Assembly: GCA_001797275.1 (NCBI GenBank)
Contig: MGOY01000003.1
Span: 1-64,000, forward strand
Direction of reading: 5' to 3'
From: Clostridiales bacterium GWF2_38_85
GTDB lineage: Bacteria; Bacillota; Clostridia; Oscillospirales; CAG-382
DNA length: 64,000 nucleotides
The notes under the pieces were generated by a model. It saw only the letters and a program-made list of their open reading frames with translations, was not told the origin of the DNA and ran no database searches. Position 1 is the first letter of the stretch. Every line of letters starts with the position of its first letter. Positions 7,039 through 21,595 of this stretch are shown here, one piece after another. Position numbers and translations under genes: made by a program.

Positions 7039-8250
7039 ATGATCTTGAAACCCGAATATATTAAAAAGCTACTGATTATTGGCGCTTGCTTTATTATCAC
7101 TGCATTATTGATTCTGTCGTTTGTTCCGCTTTTTTCTCCGGAGCTTGCTTGTTTCGCAGGTTATTCAGCTAACAACAGCGATGAACCGCTACAATTATGT
7201 TATGATATAGCAACCGGATTCCCGCTTGAAACAACCGCAAAGTCTGTCATGCTCATCGATATGGAATCGTTGCATGTTCTAACCTCGCTTAACCCGAACG
7301 AAAAGTTAGGAATGGCAAGCACAACGAAAATAATGACTGCACTCGTTGCACTCGATTTGCTTCCTTTATCAAAGAAAATCACAATCCCGAAGGAAGCTGT
7401 CGGTATTGAAGGTTCGTCAATATATCTGCTTGAGGGCGAAACACTGACGACCGAAGAATTGCTGTATGGTCTGCTTTTAGAGTCGGGCAACGATGTTGCA
7501 ACGACACTTGCAATAGCTGCATGCGGTGATGTTGTTAGCTTTGTTGACAGGATGAACCGGAAGGCAGCTGCACTCGGACTTAAAAATACACACTTTTCAA
7601 ATCCGCACGGACTGTCGGATGACAACCACTACACAACCGCTGAGGACCTTGCAACACTGACAGCAGTTGCTATGCGAAATGATATATTCAGAAAAATCGT
7701 TTCCGAGAAGAAAAAGACAATACCCTATGATGGAGTTGAAAACGGCAGAATACTTGTCAACCATAACAAACTGCTGAGTTCCTTTGAAGGTGCTGTAGGA
7801 GTCAAAACAGGTTATACCAAAGCAACCGGCAGATGCCTGGTCACAGCTGTAAGGAGAAACGGACAGACACTGATTGCAGTTACTCTCGATTGCTCAAACG
7901 ACTGGGCAATACATAAGCAGCTGCACGATTGGGGCTTCGAGAACTACCAAGGAAAAACTCTTGTCGGTATAATGGATCACAGCTACAGGGTGAATGTTGT
8001 AGGTGGTGAAAACGATTCTGTTATATGCCAGAATACAGCAGAAGCTTATGTTTGTGTCCCTGCTGACAGTGAGATAACATCAATAATATCACTTCCGCAA
8101 TTTATATATGCTCCCGTATATGAAGGTGATCCAATCGGCAAGGTAACATATTATACAGATAGCAGGATAATATATGAGCTGCCGCTGGTAGCTACAGATA
8201 ATATAAGACTAAAGAAAATAAATTTTTGGAGAAAACTATTTAATGGCTGA
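7039..8250 (+). CDS. dacF: D-alanyl-D-alanine carboxypeptidase (DacF-like, S11 family)
   Basis: A 403-residue penicillin-binding protein 5 type enzyme that trims the terminal D-Ala from peptidoglycan peptides, anchored outside the cytoplasmic membrane. The start at 7039 is chosen for the AAAGGGG just upstream. An N-terminal signal/anchor covers residues 10-32. The catalytic motifs are STTK (S94-K97, acylated Ser 94), SGN (149-151) and KTG (256-258), followed by a C-terminal beta domain that ends without an obvious amphipathic helix. Placement after gerW and before rluB suggests the sporulation enzyme DacF/DacB; the usual neighbours spmA and spmB are absent. The stop overlaps the rluB start by 8 bp. 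Confidence 0.9.
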   Translation: MILKPEYIKKLLIIGACFIITALLILSFVPLFSPELACFAGYSANNSDEPLQLCYDIATGFPLETTAKSVMLIDMESLHVLTSLNPNEKLGMASTTKIMTALVALDLLPLSKKITIPKEAVGIEGSSIYLLEGETLTTEELLYGLLLESGNDVATTLAIAACGDVVSFVDRMNRKAAALGLKNTHFSNPHGLSDDNHYTTAEDLATLTAVAMRNDIFRKIVSEKKKTIPYDGVENGRILVNHNKLLSSFEGAVGVKTGYTKATGRCLVTAVRRNGQTLIAVTLDCSNDWAIHKQLHDWGFENYQGKTLVGIMDHSYRVNVVGGENDSVICQNTAEAYVCVPADSEITSIISLPQFIYAPVYEGDPIGKVTYYTDSRIIYELPLVATDNIRLKKINFWRKLFNG

Positions 8251-13841: not shown

Positions 13842-16370
13842 ATGAAAGAGAAATTTGTAATAAACGGTATGAGTTGTGCGGCTTGTGCATCAAAGGTCGA
13901 AAAAGCAGTTGCAAAAGTTGAAGGCGTCGAAAATGTGGGTGTCAATCTGCTTGCCGGTAGTATGACAGTTGCATTCAATGATAATGTTGACAGCAAGGTG
14001 ATAATGGATGCGGTATCTAAAGCAGGTTACGCAGCATCAGTCGCAAATGTCAGTCAAACATCAGTAAAAAAAAATCAACCTATGATCGGTGATGAACACA
14101 CCAGCGTCAAGACACGGCTCACTGTTTCGATAGTATTTCTGATCCTTCTCATGTATCTGGCGATGGGGCATATGATTTCATTGCCTCTTCCCTCTTTTCT
14201 GAGCGGGAACGAAAACATGCTGTCGAATGCATTGTTACAGTTTCTGCTTTCGCTTCCTATTGTTTTTGTAAACAGAGAATATTACAGCCGGGGATTCAAT
14301 CTGCTTTGGAAACGCAGTCCTAATATGGATACATTAATTGCCCTTGGTTCAGGCGCAGCGCTTACTTACGGTGTGTTCGCCCTATTTATGATGAGCTACG
14401 CTTATGGTCATAATGATTTACACACAGCACACAAGTATGCTGCGGATCTTTATTTTGAATCGGCAGCAACCATACTGACATTAATTACAGTCGGTAAATA
14501 TATCGAAGCACGTTCAAAGAACAAAACCGCTAATGCATTGACAAAATTAGTCGGGCTGGCACCAAAAACAGCAACTGTTGTCCGTGACGGCAAAGAAATT
14601 ACAATCCCAACCGAGGAGTTAACCGTTGGTGACACTGTTATTGTATTACCCGGACAGAGTATTCCTGCTGACGGTGTAGTCATCGAAGGAAATGCGGCAG
14701 TTGACCAGTCTGCAATAACCGGCGAAAGTGTTCCGGTTGACAAATCGGTTGGAGATGAGGTAATTGCCGCTACTGTCAACAAAAACGGATATATAAAATT
14801 CACCGCAAAGCGTGTCGGAAATGATACAACCTTCTCAGAAATCATCCGGTTGATGGATGAAGCTGCATCCTCAAAGGCACCGATTGCACGGCTTGCCGAT
14901 AAAATCAGCGGCATTTTTGTGCCGATTGTAACCGGTATTGCGATTTTATCCGCAATTGTCTGGCTAATTCTCGGAAAACCCTTTGAATACGCACTTTACA
15001 CTGCGATCGCAGTGCTTGTCATAAGCTGTCCCTGCGCGCTCGGACTTGCGACACCTGTTGCGATAATGGTCGGCACAGGCAGAGCAGCAGCAAACGGCAT
15101 ACTTGTCAAAAGTGCAGCGGCACTTGAGAGACTTCACAAGGTTGACACTGTTGTGATGGACAAGACAGGCACAATTACGATTGGTACTCCCTCAGTCACC
15201 GACATTGTAACAACAGGTATAAATAAAAATGCATTTTTACGCATTGCAGGCTCACTGGAACGGCAATCAGGGCATCCGCTTGCAGAGGCTGTATGCAGGT
15301 ATACCGATGGAAACGCGATTGTGTTATACCCAGTTACACAATTCACCGAAATTGCAGGCAGAGGTGTCAGCGGAACAATAAATAACACTGCTGTAATCGG
15401 CGGAAACGCTGCCTTTATGCGTGAAAGCGGTATAGACATATCTACAATAACCGAATCTACAAAGCTGTATACCTCGCAAGGTAAAACACCGCTATATTTT
15501 GCAGAAAACAGCAGACTGCTCGGAGCGATCTTTACTGCCGACACAATAAAGCCCGAAGCAAAGGAATCGGTTGCAGAACTGAAACGGATGGGGTTGAATG
15601 TTGTTATGCTGACAGGAGACAACAACGCCGCTGCCGAATATGTTCGCTCCAAGCTTGACATAGACAAAGCAATTGCCGAGGTACTGCCTCAAGAAAAGGA
15701 AAGACATGTCCGTGAGCTGGTTGAACAGAAGCACACTGTTGTCATGGTCGGCGACGGTATCAACGATGCACCCTCGCTTGCTCGTGCTGATGTTGGTATT
15801 GCAATCGGCGCAGGTACGGATATTGCCATCGAAGCGGCCGATATAGTATTGATGAAGAGCCGCCTGACCGATGTTGTCACTGCAATAAAGCTGAGCCGCT
15901 CGGTTATAAGGAATGTCAAACAAAATCTATTCTGGGCGTTTATATACAATCTCATAGGCATTCCGCTTGCTGCCGGTGTTTTCACACCTATTTTTGGTTG
16001 GCAGCTCAGCCCGGTGTATGCCGCTGCTGCAATGAGCCTCAGCTCGCTGTTTGTGGTCGGTAACGCATCAAGACTGTACGGATTCAAACCGTTCAGATTG
16101 AAAATCAAAGAGATTCCGCAAGAAATTATTCCTGAGGAAAACGAAATTAGAAAGGAAGAGACAGAAACCATGAAAAAGATACTCAAAATAGAAGGAATGT
16201 CCTGCAACCACTGCAAGATGGCGGTTGAAAAAGCACTTAACGCACTTGAAAATGTAACTGCTGCTGTTGATCTCGCAAATAAGCAAGCAGAGCTGACAAT
16301 CACCGGCGATGTCAGCGAAAAGCTGATAGTCGATACAGTCAACGAGCTTGGGTATGAAGCAAGATTCTAA
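13842..16370 (+). CDS. copA: Copper-exporting P1B-type ATPase with fused C-terminal metallochaperone domain
   Basis: An 842-residue membrane pump expelling Cu(I). An N-terminal heavy-metal domain has GMSCAAC (C12, C15). The P-type core has ITGESVPV, the membrane metal site CPC (C396-C398), the phosphorylated Asp in DKTGT (D440), HP in SGHPLAEAV and VGDGINDAPSLARADVG. After the last membrane helices there is an acidic linker and a second complete metal-binding domain whose start (M777, KKILKIEGMSCNHC, C788 and C791) looks exactly like a free CopZ chaperone. An internal start there would give a 66-residue chaperone. The stop TAA (16368-16370) is one copy of the 3-bp target duplication of a solo repeat unit. 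Confidence 0.94.
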   Translation: MKEKFVINGMSCAACASKVEKAVAKVEGVENVGVNLLAGSMTVAFNDNVDSKVIMDAVSKAGYAASVANVSQTSVKKNQPMIGDEHTSVKTRLTVSIVFLILLMYLAMGHMISLPLPSFLSGNENMLSNALLQFLLSLPIVFVNREYYSRGFNLLWKRSPNMDTLIALGSGAALTYGVFALFMMSYAYGHNDLHTAHKYAADLYFESAATILTLITVGKYIEARSKNKTANALTKLVGLAPKTATVVRDGKEITIPTEELTVGDTVIVLPGQSIPADGVVIEGNAAVDQSAITGESVPVDKSVGDEVIAATVNKNGYIKFTAKRVGNDTTFSEIIRLMDEAASSKAPIARLADKISGIFVPIVTGIAILSAIVWLILGKPFEYALYTAIAVLVISCPCALGLATPVAIMVGTGRAAANGILVKSAAALERLHKVDTVVMDKTGTITIGTPSVTDIVTTGINKNAFLRIAGSLERQSGHPLAEAVCRYTDGNAIVLYPVTQFTEIAGRGVSGTINNTAVIGGNAAFMRESGIDISTITESTKLYTSQGKTPLYFAENSRLLGAIFTADTIKPEAKESVAELKRMGLNVVMLTGDNNAAAEYVRSKLDIDKAIAEVLPQEKERHVRELVEQKHTVVMVGDGINDAPSLARADVGIAIGAGTDIAIEAADIVLMKSRLTDVVTAIKLSRSVIRNVKQNLFWAFIYNLIGIPLAAGVFTPIFGWQLSPVYAAAAMSLSSLFVVGNASRLYGFKPFRLKIKEIPQEIIPEENEIRKEETETMKKILKIEGMSCNHCKMAVEKALNALENVTAAVDLANKQAELTITGDVSEKLIVDTVNELGYEARF

Positions 16371-17421: not shown

Positions 17422-17869
17422 ATGCAAAATAAGCTTAAGTTAATATCAGGAGCTGTTATAATTCTTGTTGTTCTGTTTGCATTTTCGTCGTGTTTCTTAC
17501 TGAAAAATGAAAAGCTTGATACTGTGACAAATAATCTGCTTGTTGCTCTTGTTGATGAAGATACTGACGCAATTGAAGCGACCCTGCACCCCGACTGACA
17601 TTCTTGATGATATTGATGATTTTTATGAGAGTCTCGATAATGCCGGAATTGAGCTTGAAGGCGAAATTAAAAATCTTACCCCCACATATCGCGGTTTCAA
17701 CTCAAGTGTTGGCACCAACGGAACTCAAAAAACCACAGAATCTACATATACTGTAGAAATCGGTGATGATAGATATCAAATAAAAATATACACACTCGAA
17801 GACAACGGCGGTTTCGGTATAACCGGATTCACAATTGATAAATTCAAAAATAGCGAGTCATCGAAATAA
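17422..17869 (+). pseudogene. Lipoprotein gene broken by a frameshift
   Basis: From ATG 17422 (AAGGGAAGG upstream) the reading frame gives a lipoprotein start (MQNKLKLISGAVIILVVLF, lipobox near FSSC at about residues 21-24), then LDTVTNNLLVALVDEDTDAI and stops at TGA 17596-17598 after 58 codons. In the +1 frame, directly after, the sequence goes on as ILDDIDDFYESLDNAGIELE and ends at 17869. Both parts together look like one small lipoprotein of about 148 residues. The break lies in or beside CACCCCGACTGACA. Either a one- or two-base indel inactivated the gene or it is a sequencing error in the C-run. Confidence 0.75.
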
Positions 17870-17876
17870 TTGTAAA

Positions 17877-17911
17877 GGGCATTCCATACAAAACGGAATG
17901 CTCTTATTTTT
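17877..17911. terminator. Bidirectional terminator between convergent genes
   Basis: GGGCATTCC (17877-17885) pairs with GGAATGCTC (17895-17903), followed on the plus strand by TTATTTTTA. It serves the broken lipoprotein gene on the plus strand and overlaps the stop of the converging membrane protein gene on the minus strand. Confidence 0.75.
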
Positions 17912-18515
17912 ATGATTCAGTTACAATATCATGCGGTTGGATTATCAATGCTTTCTGTTCGTTCAGTAGCAGTAGTAGAATTGATGTCAATACACCCGAC
18001 AACAACATAACCGTAAAATCCCATGGTGAGAATGGTATTTCACTGATAGGAGTAAACAAAAATCCCGTTCCGAAGATGTACAGCTTCCCGTCCATCAGTA
18101 CCAGCTCACCGACGTACATTGCCACAGTCGTTGCGACAGCGATTAAGCTGGGTAGTATAATCGACAGGAATTTGTGTTTTCTGAAAAGCATACATCCGAA
18201 ATATACACCGAAGGTGATTCCATATACGATAAAGAACACACTCATCAGAAATGCCGATATCGGTGCGATATTTATTTCACCTGTCCTGTAAAATGCAGTG
18301 AAGCATGCGAGTATGCATAAGCTGACAAATACAACGACACTGATTAATTGTGCAATTAACGGTCTTCTCTTTTCATAATTACCAATTCCAAACATTCTTG
18401 TAAATCCATAAATAAGTCCGATTGTTGTCAGCAAATACAGGAGTTCCTGTTGTTTTATAAATTGTTTGGTAAACCTGTGGGGTTGCGACACAAAGACTGA
18501 GTTGCTAGGATTCAA
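17910..18515 (-). CDS. Polytopic membrane protein of unknown function in the BlaI/M56 operon
   Basis: 201 residues with about five hydrophobic segments (roughly 27-45, 55-75, 84-106, 115-136, 167-186) and short loops. It overlaps the end of the preceding gene by 11 bp, so it is translated with it. I recognise no domain. It is the last gene of an operon that starts with a BlaI-type repressor and an M56 peptidase, so it is likely controlled by that repressor. It may be a target, an immunity factor or part of the sensor; the sequence does not decide. Confidence 0.7.
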   Translation of the reverse strand: MNPSNSVFVSQPHRFTKQFIKQQELLYLLTTIGLIYGFTRMFGIGNYEKRRPLIAQLISVVVFVSLCILACFTAFYRTGEINIAPISAFLMSVFFIVYGITFGVYFGCMLFRKHKFLSIILPSLIAVATTVAMYVGELVLMDGKLYIFGTGFLFTPISEIPFSPWDFTVMLLSGVLTSILLLLLNEQKALIIQPHDIVTES

Positions 18516-18870
18516 GCGGTACTGCTATTTTTTCGATTGTTGTTTCATATGTATAGCCTGTGATAACCTTGATCTGCTCCAAGCCGATTTCACTTAACCA
18601 GAATGCGGCAACACCGAGTACAGAACCGGCAACCATTGAGTATTTCTTGAACAGCTTATACAGCAGAGGAAACAAAACCGCGACAACCAAAATACCGATA
18701 CACATTGGTGTGTATGGTATTATGTACTTGGGGTAGTTGGCAACCTCAATTGCTCCGTTTTCGATATATGCGTTGAGTGTTTTGATACCCATATAAATCG
18801 GGTATGCTGATGCTGCAAGCAATAATAAAAGAGAACTGAAATAAAAAATCCAATACTTTTTTTTGATCAT
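18505..18870 (-). CDS. Small membrane protein in the BlaI/M56 operon
   Basis: 121 residues: a Lys-rich start (MIKKKYWIFYF), a membrane segment at about 8-28, an extracytoplasmic stretch around 30-48, then two more hydrophobic segments (about 50-70 and 76-93) and a polar tail. No family recognised. It begins 22 bp after the M56 peptidase gene with GGAGG upstream and overlaps the next gene. Confidence 0.65.
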   Translation of the reverse strand: MIKKKYWIFYFSSLLLLLAASAYPIYMGIKTLNAYIENGAIEVANYPKYIIPYTPMCIGILVVAVLFPLLYKLFKKYSMVAGSVLGVAAFWLSEIGLEQIKVITGYTYETTIEKIAVPLES

Positions 18871-18892
18871 TTATAAAACCTCCATGTTAATT

Positions 18893-19807
18893 TTATACAG
18901 CTGCGTTTGTCAGCAGAATATATGCGATTGCAGCGGCAAATGCAATAAAACATACTGTTGAAAAGACGGTTGCTTGTTTATATGACAGAATGTTTTCGAT
19001 ACGAATCTTTGTCTTTGCTCCACCGAAGGTCGACACAAATATTGTTCGTTTCGCCTCGCAGTTGAAAATTGCTGTTGCATAGCTCTTTCTTTTTTCTTCA
19101 CCGCAGTGTTTCAATACCCTCTCGTCACAGGCAATTTCGTTGTCAATTAAGAAGTACTTCAGACAAATCCACGTTATCGGGTTGAACCAGTGCAGGCAGG
19201 CTGTCAGCACTGCTATAAAGCGGACAAGGTTATCAAGACGTCTGATGTGTGTATTTTCGTGTAGAAAAATGAATTCCATATCCGATTCGTTTACATTCTG
19301 TGGAAGAATTATTTTAGGTCTGAATATACCGTATACGGCAGGCGAATCGATTTTTTTAGATATGTATATGTTATCTCTGATATGCACTGAGTCCTTTATC
19401 GCAGCCATTGTTGTGATGTAAAGAAACAGCTGAGTCAGAAATGCAGCACAAAACCCGATTATCCAGACGGTTGCTGCAATATTAAATATATTTTCGAGCA
19501 GACTGGTTTTGTATACGATCGGGAAATATCTCTCGGCTGTTTGAAGCATATTTGTCATTGTTATTATCGGAAAAGCCACCGGCTCATATACAACCACGGT
19601 TTTAATCGCATATTTTGCCACTAAATTCATGATACTGAACCTGCTTTCGATGATGAACGGAATCGTAAAACGTATAAACGGTATTGCCCACAAATAACAA
19701 ATGACCGAACGAGGTATAGCTCTGATTTTACGCAGTAATAGGATGAAGATGCCGGCTGCACCTCCAATTATGCTCATATTCAGAACCCAGAAGAATACTC
19801 CGCTCAT
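18893..19807 (-). CDS. M56 family membrane metallopeptidase (BlaR1/MecR1-type) without a sensor domain
   Basis: 304 residues with membrane segments at about 5-25, 33-52, 108-131 and 282-302 and the zinc protease site HENTH (H183, E184, H187) in FIFLHENTHIRRLDN, then the conserved NEIACDERVL. In BlaR1 and MecR1 this domain is activated by an outer penicillin-binding domain and leads to destruction of the BlaI repressor. Here the protein stops just after the fourth membrane helix, so no sensor is attached. It follows the BlaI gene by 15 bp. What it senses is unknown. Confidence 0.88.
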   Translation of the reverse strand: MSGVFFWVLNMSIIGGAAGIFILLLRKIRAIPRSVICYLWAIPFIRFTIPFIIESRFSIMNLVAKYAIKTVVVYEPVAFPIITMTNMLQTAERYFPIVYKTSLLENIFNIAATVWIIGFCAAFLTQLFLYITTMAAIKDSVHIRDNIYISKKIDSPAVYGIFRPKIILPQNVNESDMEFIFLHENTHIRRLDNLVRFIAVLTACLHWFNPITWICLKYFLIDNEIACDERVLKHCGEEKRKSYATAIFNCEAKRTIFVSTFGGAKTKIRIENILSYKQATVFSTVCFIAFAAAIAYILLTNAAV

Positions 19808-19822
19808 ATCAATATAACCCTT

Positions 19823-20185
19823 CTAAATATGCTTATCTATCATCTCGCGAAGCTCATCGATTTCCTCTTTTGTCAGCTTTTTGTCATCAAGCAATGCTGC
19901 AAAAAACGCTTTTTTTGAGCCGCCGAACAGCTTGTCGATGAGTGACTTTGTTTCTGTTTTGACAACTTCGCTTTTTGATACGGTTGTAGTACAGACAAAA
20001 TTCGGCTCAGTCCGTACCACTGCATTTTTGTAAATCAATTTCTTGATAATTGTATAGGTTGTATTCTTGTTCCAGCCTATTTGTTCACCGGCGACTGCTG
20101 CTACCTGTTTCGCTGTAACAGGCTCGTTCGCCCATATAATTTCCATGACTTTTAACTCGCTGTCAAATACTTTGATCTGATCCAT
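19823..20185 (-). CDS. BlaI/MecI/CopY family winged-helix repressor
   Basis: 120 residues from the ATG at 20183-20185, preceded by GGAGAGGG; the frame is open further but runs into the promoter. The N-terminal half is the family winged helix: FDSELKVMEIIWANEPVTAK, GWNKNTTYTIIKKLIYKNAV and a wing with VVRTEPNFVCTTTVS. The C-terminal half (SLIDKLFGGSKKAFFAALL) is the usual dimerisation region, with FFAALLDD near the cleavage area of BlaI. It most likely represses its own operon through the palindrome at 20214-20229. Confidence 0.9.
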   Translation of the reverse strand: MDQIKVFDSELKVMEIIWANEPVTAKQVAAVAGEQIGWNKNTTYTIIKKLIYKNAVVRTEPNFVCTTTVSKSEVVKTETKSLIDKLFGGSKKAFFAALLDDKKLTKEEIDELREMIDKHI

Positions 20186-20213
20186 TTCTTTTATTCCCTC
20201 TCCAACTATTATT

Positions 20214-20251
20214 ATAGTATACATACTATCACAATAGTTTTTCTTTGTCAA
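20214..20251 (-). promoter_or_regulatory. Sigma-A promoter overlapped by a palindromic BlaI-type operator
   Basis: On the minus strand TTGACA (20246-20251) and TAGTAT (20223-20228) are separated by exactly 17 bp. The palindrome ATAGTAT-AC-ATACTAT (20214-20229) has perfect 7-bp arms and covers the -10 box. A repressor bound there would block RNA polymerase, as expected for autoregulation by the BlaI-type protein encoded immediately downstream. Confidence 0.75.
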
Positions 20252-20416: not shown

Positions 20417-20614
20417 TTATTTGCTGCCCTTTAACTGATTCTCGGCGTTCTGAATCATCTTTTTAACCATTTGTCCGCCGATAGAACCTGCCTGTCTTGC
20501 AGTAAGGTCGCCGTTATAACCATTCTTAAGATTTACGCCAACTTCGCTTGCTGACTCCATCTTGAACTGTTCCATTGCGCCTTTTGCTTCAGGTACAAGT
20601 GTTCTGTTTGCCAT
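20417..20614 (-). CDS. Alpha/beta-type small acid-soluble spore protein
   Basis: 65 residues from the ATG at 20612-20614 with AAAGGAGAA upstream. The sequence NRTLVPEAKGAMEQFKMESA, followed by SEVGVNL, a DLTARQAGSIGGQMVKKMI block and a polar tail, is the standard alpha/beta SASP pattern, including the Glu-Ser region cut by the germination protease GPR. These proteins coat spore DNA, switch it to an A-like form and protect it from UV and heat. This is direct evidence that the organism forms endospores. Expression is expected from sigma-G in the forespore; I could not define that promoter. Confidence 0.93.
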   Translation of the reverse strand: MANRTLVPEAKGAMEQFKMESASEVGVNLKNGYNGDLTARQAGSIGGQMVKKMIQNAENQLKGSK

Positions 20615-20649
20615 TATTTTTTCTCCTTTTGTCATAACACAAAGTTTTG

Positions 20650-20832: not shown

Positions 20833-20861
20833 TTGACATATATTTGAAAGCAATATATAAT
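20833..20861 (+). promoter_or_regulatory. Consensus sigma-A promoter for the gene at 20909
   Basis: A perfect TTGACA (20833-20838), a 17-bp spacer and a perfect TATAAT (20856-20861). The predicted leader to the ATG at 20909 is about 40 nt. This is the strongest-looking vegetative promoter in the window. Confidence 0.8.
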
Positions 20862-20908
20862 CATCTTACTAAATAATTATTCTTATATTATATTCAGGGA
20901 GAATTCTA

Positions 20909-21595
20909 ATGTCAAAAAGAACAGTCAAGAAAGAACAATCAAAAGCAGTAAAAATATTTTGGAAAATCTTTATTTCATTAATCGGTATATTATTAATTTT
21001 TATTGCTATTAATGAAGTCGCCCTCGGTATATTTGGCAAAACTGCTATTGCAACTGTTTCTACACGTCGTGTCGGCGGAAGCAATAATAATGAACCACCC
21101 GAACGACAATATGACTGGTCTGTTGATTACAGTTTTATGGTTGATGGAAATGAATACAATGGTCATACAACTCACAAAGGCTCTGCAATGTCTGTGAATT
21201 ATGATAATCAAGTACATTATTATTCATTTGCACCGATTATTAATTCAATTGATGCGAATGCAATACCGAGTTTTGGAACATTCATCATGATAGGTCTTGG
21301 TATTTTTCTACTTATAATAATGAACGCAGATCCAAAAAAGAAAAAACGAATAGCAATTCCTTCATTAAATAAAACTACAAAAACCGTAAAAGCACCGAGC
21401 AATGAAAATTGCGAACAAGCAAAAGACGAGCGTGTTACAATGGCATGGCTCATGAAGAACACTACTGATTATGATGACTCTGTAGAGGAATACTACCAAA
21501 ACGGTTGGGATATAAATGACCCATCATGGCAATGCGAGTGCGGCGAATGGAATGAAAAAGAATTCTGTACTAAATGCGGCGAACATAAAAAATAA
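20909..21595 (+). CDS. Membrane protein with DUF3592-like domain and C-terminal zinc ribbon
   Basis: 228 residues. A Lys-rich start is followed by a membrane segment (about 13-36), an extracytoplasmic beta-rich domain of about 75 residues (ATVSTRRVGG ... WSVDYSFMVDGNEYNG), a second membrane segment (about 115-135), a basic linker and a cytoplasmic tail ending in a CxC-x9-CxxC zinc ribbon (CECGEWNEKEFCTKCGEHKK). The outer domain resembles DUF3592. The ribosome binding site is AGGGAGAA. It has its own consensus promoter and no operon partner. The function is unknown. Confidence 0.7.
   Translation: MSKRTVKKEQSKAVKIFWKIFISLIGILLIFIAINEVALGIFGKTAIATVSTRRVGGSNNNEPPERQYDWSVDYSFMVDGNEYNGHTTHKGSAMSVNYDNQVHYYSFAPIINSIDANAIPSFGTFIMIGLGIFLLIIMNADPKKKKRIAIPSLNKTTKTVKAPSNENCEQAKDERVTMAWLMKNTTDYDDSVEEYYQNGWDINDPSWQCECGEWNEKEFCTKCGEHKK

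Follow-up and report, generated by a model that had tools for sequence, protein, structure and literature searches.

An operon in the draft genome of Clostridiales bacterium GWF2_38_85, lying within positions 1 to 64,000 of contig MGOY01000003.1 (this whole stretch of 64,000 nucleotides is termed the window below), raises the question of what might be controlled by a BlaI-type repressor and an M56 membrane metalloprotease devoid of an extracellular sensor domain, and of what is encoded by the two small open reading frames (ORFs) that follow them. Read on the minus strand, from 20251 down to 17910, the locus comprises a promoter, the gene for a 120 amino acid (aa) BlaI protein with the start MDQIK (19823-20185), that for a 304-aa M56 protein (18893-19807), and then ORFs of 121 aa (18505-18870) and 201 aa (17910-18515). 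Comparison with homologs identifies the two ORFs as the predicted halves of one broken gene, a pseudogene belonging to a family of eight-helix membrane proteins, for which we coin the name MP330 (intact members are mostly ~310-340 aa in length, and ~320-340 aa in the relatives). The locus as a whole is best read as a BlaI-M56 operon of a clostridial family, in which MP330 is a pseudogene here and the controlled output in relatives; to this reading we assign a probability of roughly 0.6.

The 121-aa and 201-aa queries hit the same frames in other genomes. A profile search recovered the MP330 family in 16 of 99 related genomes, and among the 15 other than that of the window, 12 carry both parts in one intact open frame, in two (G010 and G087) the gene is truncated by the end of a contig, and in G038 it is broken. 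Likewise, the best 80 of 229 relatives from a GTDB scan, a selection biased towards conserved copies, all possess a single uninterrupted MP330 frame. The window copy shows two lesions. The first is a stop codon ending the N-terminal part (helices 1-3; 121-aa ORF), which replaces a tryptophan that is invariant in 73 aligned intact members (W114 of the protein from locus L068) and lies in the outer loop that joins helix 3 to helix 4. Beyond this stop homology persists in the same frame (QLSLCVATPQ... as against QLSLCMATPE... in L217) up to a junction near 18421, and the stop thus falls inside a formerly coded stretch. The second lesion is the loss of ~56 nucleotides at this junction (18418-18424 on the minus strand, as located by comparison with L217 and L218 and a hand count), which removes the codons for 18 residues that the relatives have where helix 4 begins, and which changes the frame. 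The C-terminal part (part of helix 4 to helix 8; 201-aa ORF), which is in a different frame, shows homology only from about residue 28 onwards and is without the beginning of helix 4. A full-length eight-helix frame with the outer-loop WQ...C motif is therefore not found in the window, and the stop at the conserved tryptophan together with the missing first part of helix 4, in a sequence that is yet clearly homologous, points to a pseudogene. The initial annotation had described two membrane proteins with overlapping frames; this description has to be given up in view of the single frame in relatives and the two lesions in the window.

The decay of MP330 in the window seems to be recent, as far as substitutions can tell. 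A first count, made before the nearest subfamily was included, had 18 of 75 conserved sites changed in the window copy. With the subfamily L217-L220 added, the window has 18 of 77 sites changed versus 12-13 of 77 in intact subfamily members, and at the sites shared with L217-L220 it has 6 of 58 changed versus 0-3 of 58-61, some of the six lying in a doubtful part of the alignment. An excess of changes at conserved sites is thus unclear after allowing for the subfamily, which leaves long-term relaxed selection unsupported and implies that any decay is recent. Other decayed members of such modules are an MP330 in two frames in L056 (from G038) and M56 genes in two frames in L078/L210 and L220.

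An AlphaFold2 model of the intact MP330 of L068, built with 73 sequences, has a mean predicted local distance difference test score (pLDDT) of 83.2 and a predicted template modeling score (pTM) of 0.83. It displays eight long helical stretches, which we read as membrane-spanning, and a loop of low confidence between helices 3 and 4 (residues 107-140). Applied to this model, the positive-inside rule would put both termini (N and C) on the inner side, with numerous invariant residues (within NYPKYIIPYTP, WQM..C, ACFTAF and MYxGE) falling in or beside the outer loops. Searches with MP330 recovered no match in Pfam, NCBIfam or PADLOC, no convincing match in PHROGs and none in the PDB by sequence; a plasmid search with the L067 protein was likewise without a match. 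Foldseek searches with the model returned 66 matches up to an E value of 10, none of them at or below 0.001, and the best VIA-align match had a Z score of 7.1 over 113 residues (root mean square deviation 4.2), with none reaching 8; these results are not proof of a new fold, and the matches suggest nothing beyond common helix packing. The statement of the initial annotation that neither small protein belongs to a known family accordingly stands, inasmuch as Pfam and NCBIfam are blank for both and neither resembles a known transporter or immunity family.

The gene neighborhoods of MP330 reveal a recurrent linkage to the two upstream genes of the operon. All 80 best loci come from records named Clostridia, Bacillota or subgroups thereof, and in 60 of them an M56 gene lies directly upstream of MP330 or one lipoprotein gene away, with a BlaI gene also present in 57; several of these loci are on the same contigs as loci from our genome samples, and the identical L070 and L071 were both counted. 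Five of the 20 loci without M56 have less than ~1.2 kb of contig upstream. M56 adjoins MP330 in 13 of the 16 MP330-bearing genomes among the 99 relatives. In a class-wide sample MP330 was detected in 18 of 391 genomes, and BlaI and M56 adjoin it in 11 of 16 loci, these being drawn from the 17 matching genomes other than that of the window after leaving out a 29-residue fragment in G705. MP330 also occurs without detectable BlaI or M56 in G001 and G087, both of which are 97% complete, and in G080 it stands alone behind two operator boxes of the type described below, with BlaI, a 298-aa M56 and a 201-aa lipoprotein behind two further boxes on another contig. On a quickly built tree with long branches 14 changes occur between the solitary and M56-linked states (at least nine by the starred branches), which implies that the linkage was gained or lost repeatedly. 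The gene orders thus identify the sensorless M56/BlaI module with its associated MP330 as a real, conserved arrangement. The initial annotation fares unevenly on this score: its suggestion that the small proteins be sought beside M56/BlaI pairs elsewhere is answered by their co-occurrence, and they match no transporter or immunity family, but what co-occurs is one gene rather than two.

Several of these loci carry additional genes between M56 and MP330 or upstream of MP330, which encode one lipoprotein family (12 clustered proteins, the Acetivibrio type among them), another group of looser make-up and some singletons. An automatic search identified a lipobox in only some of these accessory proteins, none of ten that were scanned had a Pfam family over the cut-off, and a model of the Acetivibrio-type lipoprotein (pLDDT 81.9, 8 sequences) had no structure match at an E value of 0.001, its best Z score being 4.8. 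Further, four MP330 proteins bear an additional C-terminal region with a further hydrophobic stretch (L076, 5995-7848; L135, 2583-4379; L211, 4009-5889; L222, 4324-6030), and in three of the four this region shares one domain that is encoded by a separate downstream gene in L078 and L113.

The two upstream genes of the window operon look intact by sequence, and both were correctly recognized in the initial annotation. The BlaI protein scores 88.1 bits against the Penicillinase_R winged-helix profile PF03965 (cut-off 22.6) and its sequence matches the MecI/BlaI structures 1sd6, 1okr and 1sd4. The M56 protein scores 146.4 bits against PF05569 (cut-off 31), and its residues 143-284 align to the BlaR1 structure 8exp. 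Comparison with relatives shows that both zinc-site motifs are kept, namely HENTH at 183-187 and E224...D228, which are the counterparts of H201EXXH and E242XXXD of Staphylococcus aureus BlaR1 as given in the available part of PMC9834060. The protein ends just past its last hydrophobic helix and has no C-terminal penicillin-binding sensor domain; its score of 96.6 bits against the NCBIfam model blaR1_generic is below the cut-off of 400. This confirms the earlier recognition of a preserved zinc site in a protein without a sensor. The short form is a subfamily-wide trait, the full-length M56 neighbors of MP330 being 303-339 aa in length. A candidate for a second BlaI in the genome, a 157-aa frame on contig C27 beside two transporter-like frames, was rejected as it matches PF03965 with only 21 bits, below the cut-off; we take it to be MarR-like from its resemblance to that family.

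Examination of the upstream regions revealed a probable operator. In 52 of the 57 BlaI-bearing loci two ACTAT-N4-ATAGT boxes, each with at most two mismatches, precede the BlaI gene, the spacing being 18 bp in 51 of these and 17 bp in one. In the window the spacing is 20 bp and both conserved dyads are perfect (box 1, ACTATTGTGATAGT, 20225-20238; box 2, ACTATAATAATAGT, 20205-20218; both on the minus strand). A promoter scan found a promoter-like TTGACA-17-TAGTAT at 20251-20223 on the same strand, with 10 of 12 consensus positions, comprising a -35 element at 20246-20251 and, preceded by TG, a -10 element at 20223-20228 that overlaps box 1. The boxes (20205-20238) would thus form a dyad operator over the promoter of their own operon, as is typical of BlaI/MecI. 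The 16-bp palindrome that the initial annotation placed over the -10 element is indeed there (20214-20229), but not as a unit in its own right: it spans the junction of the two boxes, where the right half of one must be an inverted copy of the left half of its neighbor, and is a by-product of their pairing. Searches with a pattern combining the -35 element and box 1 recovered 11 sites in 10 of 63 genomes of the family, against none with a reversed-pattern control, and 23 sites in 22 of 394 genomes of the order, against one with the control. By position and downstream genes, 21 of the 23 precede a BlaI gene; the other two are the MP330 promoter region of G080 and a site on contig C24 of the genome of the window. 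Box sites with one mismatch on contigs C9 and C14 were discarded, as they lie inside open frames and have no TTGACA upstream in the stretch inspected. The same type of box, with wider spacing, is also seen in clostridial BlaI operons with differing M56-like proteins (L175-L184 without L177, and L188).

The genome of the window (G000) thus has two sites with the combined promoter and box pattern, one at the operon and one on C24. The latter promoter (C24, 38314-38341), with one perfect BlaI box, precedes a gene for a 482-aa lipoprotein-like protein (G000:C24:36732-38180, minus strand), of which a stretch of 98 residues is 47% identical (E value 8e-24) to a 130-aa lipoprotein encoded between M56 and MP330 in G520. 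The box and the homology agree, and the C24 lipoprotein is hence the predicted second regulon member in this genome. The operon itself has no beta-lactamase, as had been noted from the start; matches to PF13354 (Beta-lactamase2) are found only elsewhere in the genome. There are seven of these, including one inside the window at 7282-7668 (plus strand) and a 248-aa single-domain protein on C30, and none is near either BlaI-box promoter.

These architectural and contextual features suggest a potential mechanism. BlaI dimers bound to the two boxes would shut off the region from the -10 element to +1; an envelope signal might then activate M56, which would cut BlaI in the manner of BlaR1, perhaps between A97 and L98, with the resultant derepression of the operon and of any other promoter bearing the box. 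In relatives the main output would be MP330, often along with an exchangeable envelope lipoprotein, and in the genome of the window, where MP330 appears to have been lost recently, the C24 lipoprotein would be the remaining target outside the operon. M56 may sense the signal itself, through its membrane helices and outer loops, or rely on a lipoprotein; the lipoproteins are candidates for the input and equally possible outputs. Based on gene context, MP330 is more likely a controlled output than a sensor, given its presence without BlaI and M56 in G001 and G087 and as a separate box target in G080.

A number of points weigh against this reading. The candidate cut site in BlaI, A97-L98, which is nearly invariant in 57 relatives, has A-L at the position that aligns with N-F of MecI, the cleavage site of MecI/BlaI proteins. 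Paired boxes were found upstream of only one of the 20 MP330 genes without M56, so that in most solitary cases the boxes offer no support for control by BlaI. Only one good box is present at the C24 promoter, although two pairs are required according to PMC8457756. The account of this particular genome is drawn from sequence, and the lesions from one assembly in 47 contigs, for which no second strain was found. Lastly, M56 accompanies MP330 in most loci, as would also be expected of a partner protein acting as the sensor.

This last point is the core of the foremost alternative, which we regard as rather unlikely, namely that intact MP330 is the missing sensor: as a receptor of eight helices it would capture a ligand from the envelope at its conserved outer face and activate the neighboring sensorless M56. 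Besides the tight operon linkage, this would account for the strongest conserved residues, which the positive-inside rule, when used with the model, puts within or close to the outer loops, and for the fusion or proximity of MP330 to outer domains. However, MP330 is found without detectable BlaI or M56 in two genomes and without them at many loci, in G080 it is on a contig of its own with BlaI-M56 and a lipoprotein elsewhere, and in the window M56 and BlaI retain the residues of their families despite the broken MP330. Were it true, the system of the window would be blind or run on another input. The earlier proposal of a four-gene module with a small membrane protein as its sensor fares worse, since its two small proteins are one broken eight-helix protein whose intact family also occurs without BlaI and M56. 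A second alternative is that the break arose as an error of assembly or sequencing, with MP330 intact in the organism, in line with the draft state of the genome, with the broken state of the neighboring plus-strand frame at 17422-17869 and with the lack of a clear excess of changes at conserved sites in the remnants once the nearest relatives are included. Yet an in-frame stop and a loss of ~56 nucleotides are separate lesions of different kinds, unlike the usual single-base insertion or deletion, and the M56 and BlaI frames next to them are unbroken; a plain sequencing slip is unlikely to have produced two independent lesions, and we consider an error improbable. That two separate small membrane proteins are encoded in overlapping frames, with the 121-aa one acting as a small sensor, is scarcely credible: both frames are open and hydrophobic and neither has a known family, but all 80 best loci, as well as 12 of the 15 remaining genomes with a match, have the region as one frame, and homology of the 201-aa frame begins only after ~27 residues, with the first part of helix 4 missing.

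The closest known counterpart of the operon is found in Clostridium (Acetivibrio) thermocellum. According to the available part of PMC8457756, BlaI_1845 of this organism binds GACTAT/ATAGTC half-sites in vitro, as determined by DNA affinity purification sequencing (DAP-seq) and electrophoretic mobility shift assays (EMSA), and four such half-sites, in two inverted pairs, precede its autoregulated operon of BlaI, BlaR1 and two hypothetical proteins; a response to beta-lactams and a homologue of peptidoglycan synthesis are suggested for it there. Both the make-up of this operon and its half-sites resemble those of the window family. The same kind of sites is found with operons of BlaI, a short M56, a lipoprotein and, as the last gene, MP330 in Acetivibrio mesophilus (L067) and A. 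straminisolvens (L069), and L213 (from G747) has the same four genes; we infer that the L067/L069 operon is the BlaI_1845 operon. The available part of that account mentions neither a sensorless M56 nor MP330 as a family (PMC8457756). Of the parts of this operon type, the window has the boxes, BlaI, M56 and a (broken) MP330, but no lipoprotein in the operon, the boxed one being on C24. With the BlaR1-BlaI system of S. aureus it has in common the HExxH and ExxxD gluzincin motifs, four full helices with a re-entrant loop and BlaI, and it differs in that the beta-lactam-binding sensor domain is absent, as is a beta-lactamase gene from the operon, as far as the available part of PMC9834060 describes that system. 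In Mycobacterium tuberculosis, BlaR (Rv1845c) likewise has no extracellular sensor domain and its signal input is described as unknown; the targets differ, being blaC, ATP synthase and cytochrome bd, with no mention of MP330 or a lipoprotein in the available parts of PMC5473688 and PMC9834060. Thus, BlaI/M56 pairs and sensorless BlaR homologues such as that of M. tuberculosis are already known, and parts of the operon type have been described in C. thermocellum. No account of the MP330 family, of its repeated tie to a sensorless M56 or of the exchangeable lipoproteins was found in the open-licence papers searched, among which the operon type appears only in PMC8457756.

A broader interpretation, which we offer tentatively and would not rate as probable, is that these operons represent a split BlaR1, with BlaI and the sensorless M56 forming a common core that controls MP330 and is fed by interchangeable envelope proteins encoded apart from it, which would include lipoproteins of several unrelated types and outer domains either attached to MP330 or specified by an adjacent gene. 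If this were the case, MP330, as a widespread eight-helix envelope family, could define a new kind of cell-envelope stress response. How sensorless BlaR1 homologues, such as those of mycobacteria, are triggered is a question of which the MP330 family offers a genetically simple version: isolates of Acetivibrio combine operator half-sites that are already known with a defined, as yet uncharacterised membrane protein and with interchangeable lipoproteins, and the input of a sensorless M56 could be tested in them. For the window itself, the two 'new proteins' reduce to one broken gene.

Some neighboring features of the window also deserve mention. A gene at 13842-16370 (plus strand) encodes an 842-aa metal-type P-ATPase with metal-binding-like motifs at both ends (GMSCAAC and GMSCNHC). 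A role of the BlaI protein as a CopY-type copper regulator of this gene was considered and rejected, since it scores 67.6 bits against the NCBIfam model CopY_TcrY (cut-off 121.95) and has a single cysteine in its 120 residues; a genome-wide search found no BlaI box pattern in the promoter of the P-ATPase gene, neither of the two sites of the genome being located there. Converging on the MP330 remnant is a secreted-protein-like frame (MQNKLKLISGAVIILVVLFAFSSC...) at 17422-17869 (plus strand), which is broken by a frame change at about 17580-17600 and whose second part has no Pfam match. Finally, two promoter-like sites with the full consensus (TTGACA-17-TATAAT, 12 of 12 positions) lie on opposite strands at 20833-20861 (plus) and 20887-20915 (minus), between a gene for a small acid-soluble spore protein (20417-20635) and a gene for a 228-aa protein (20909-21595).

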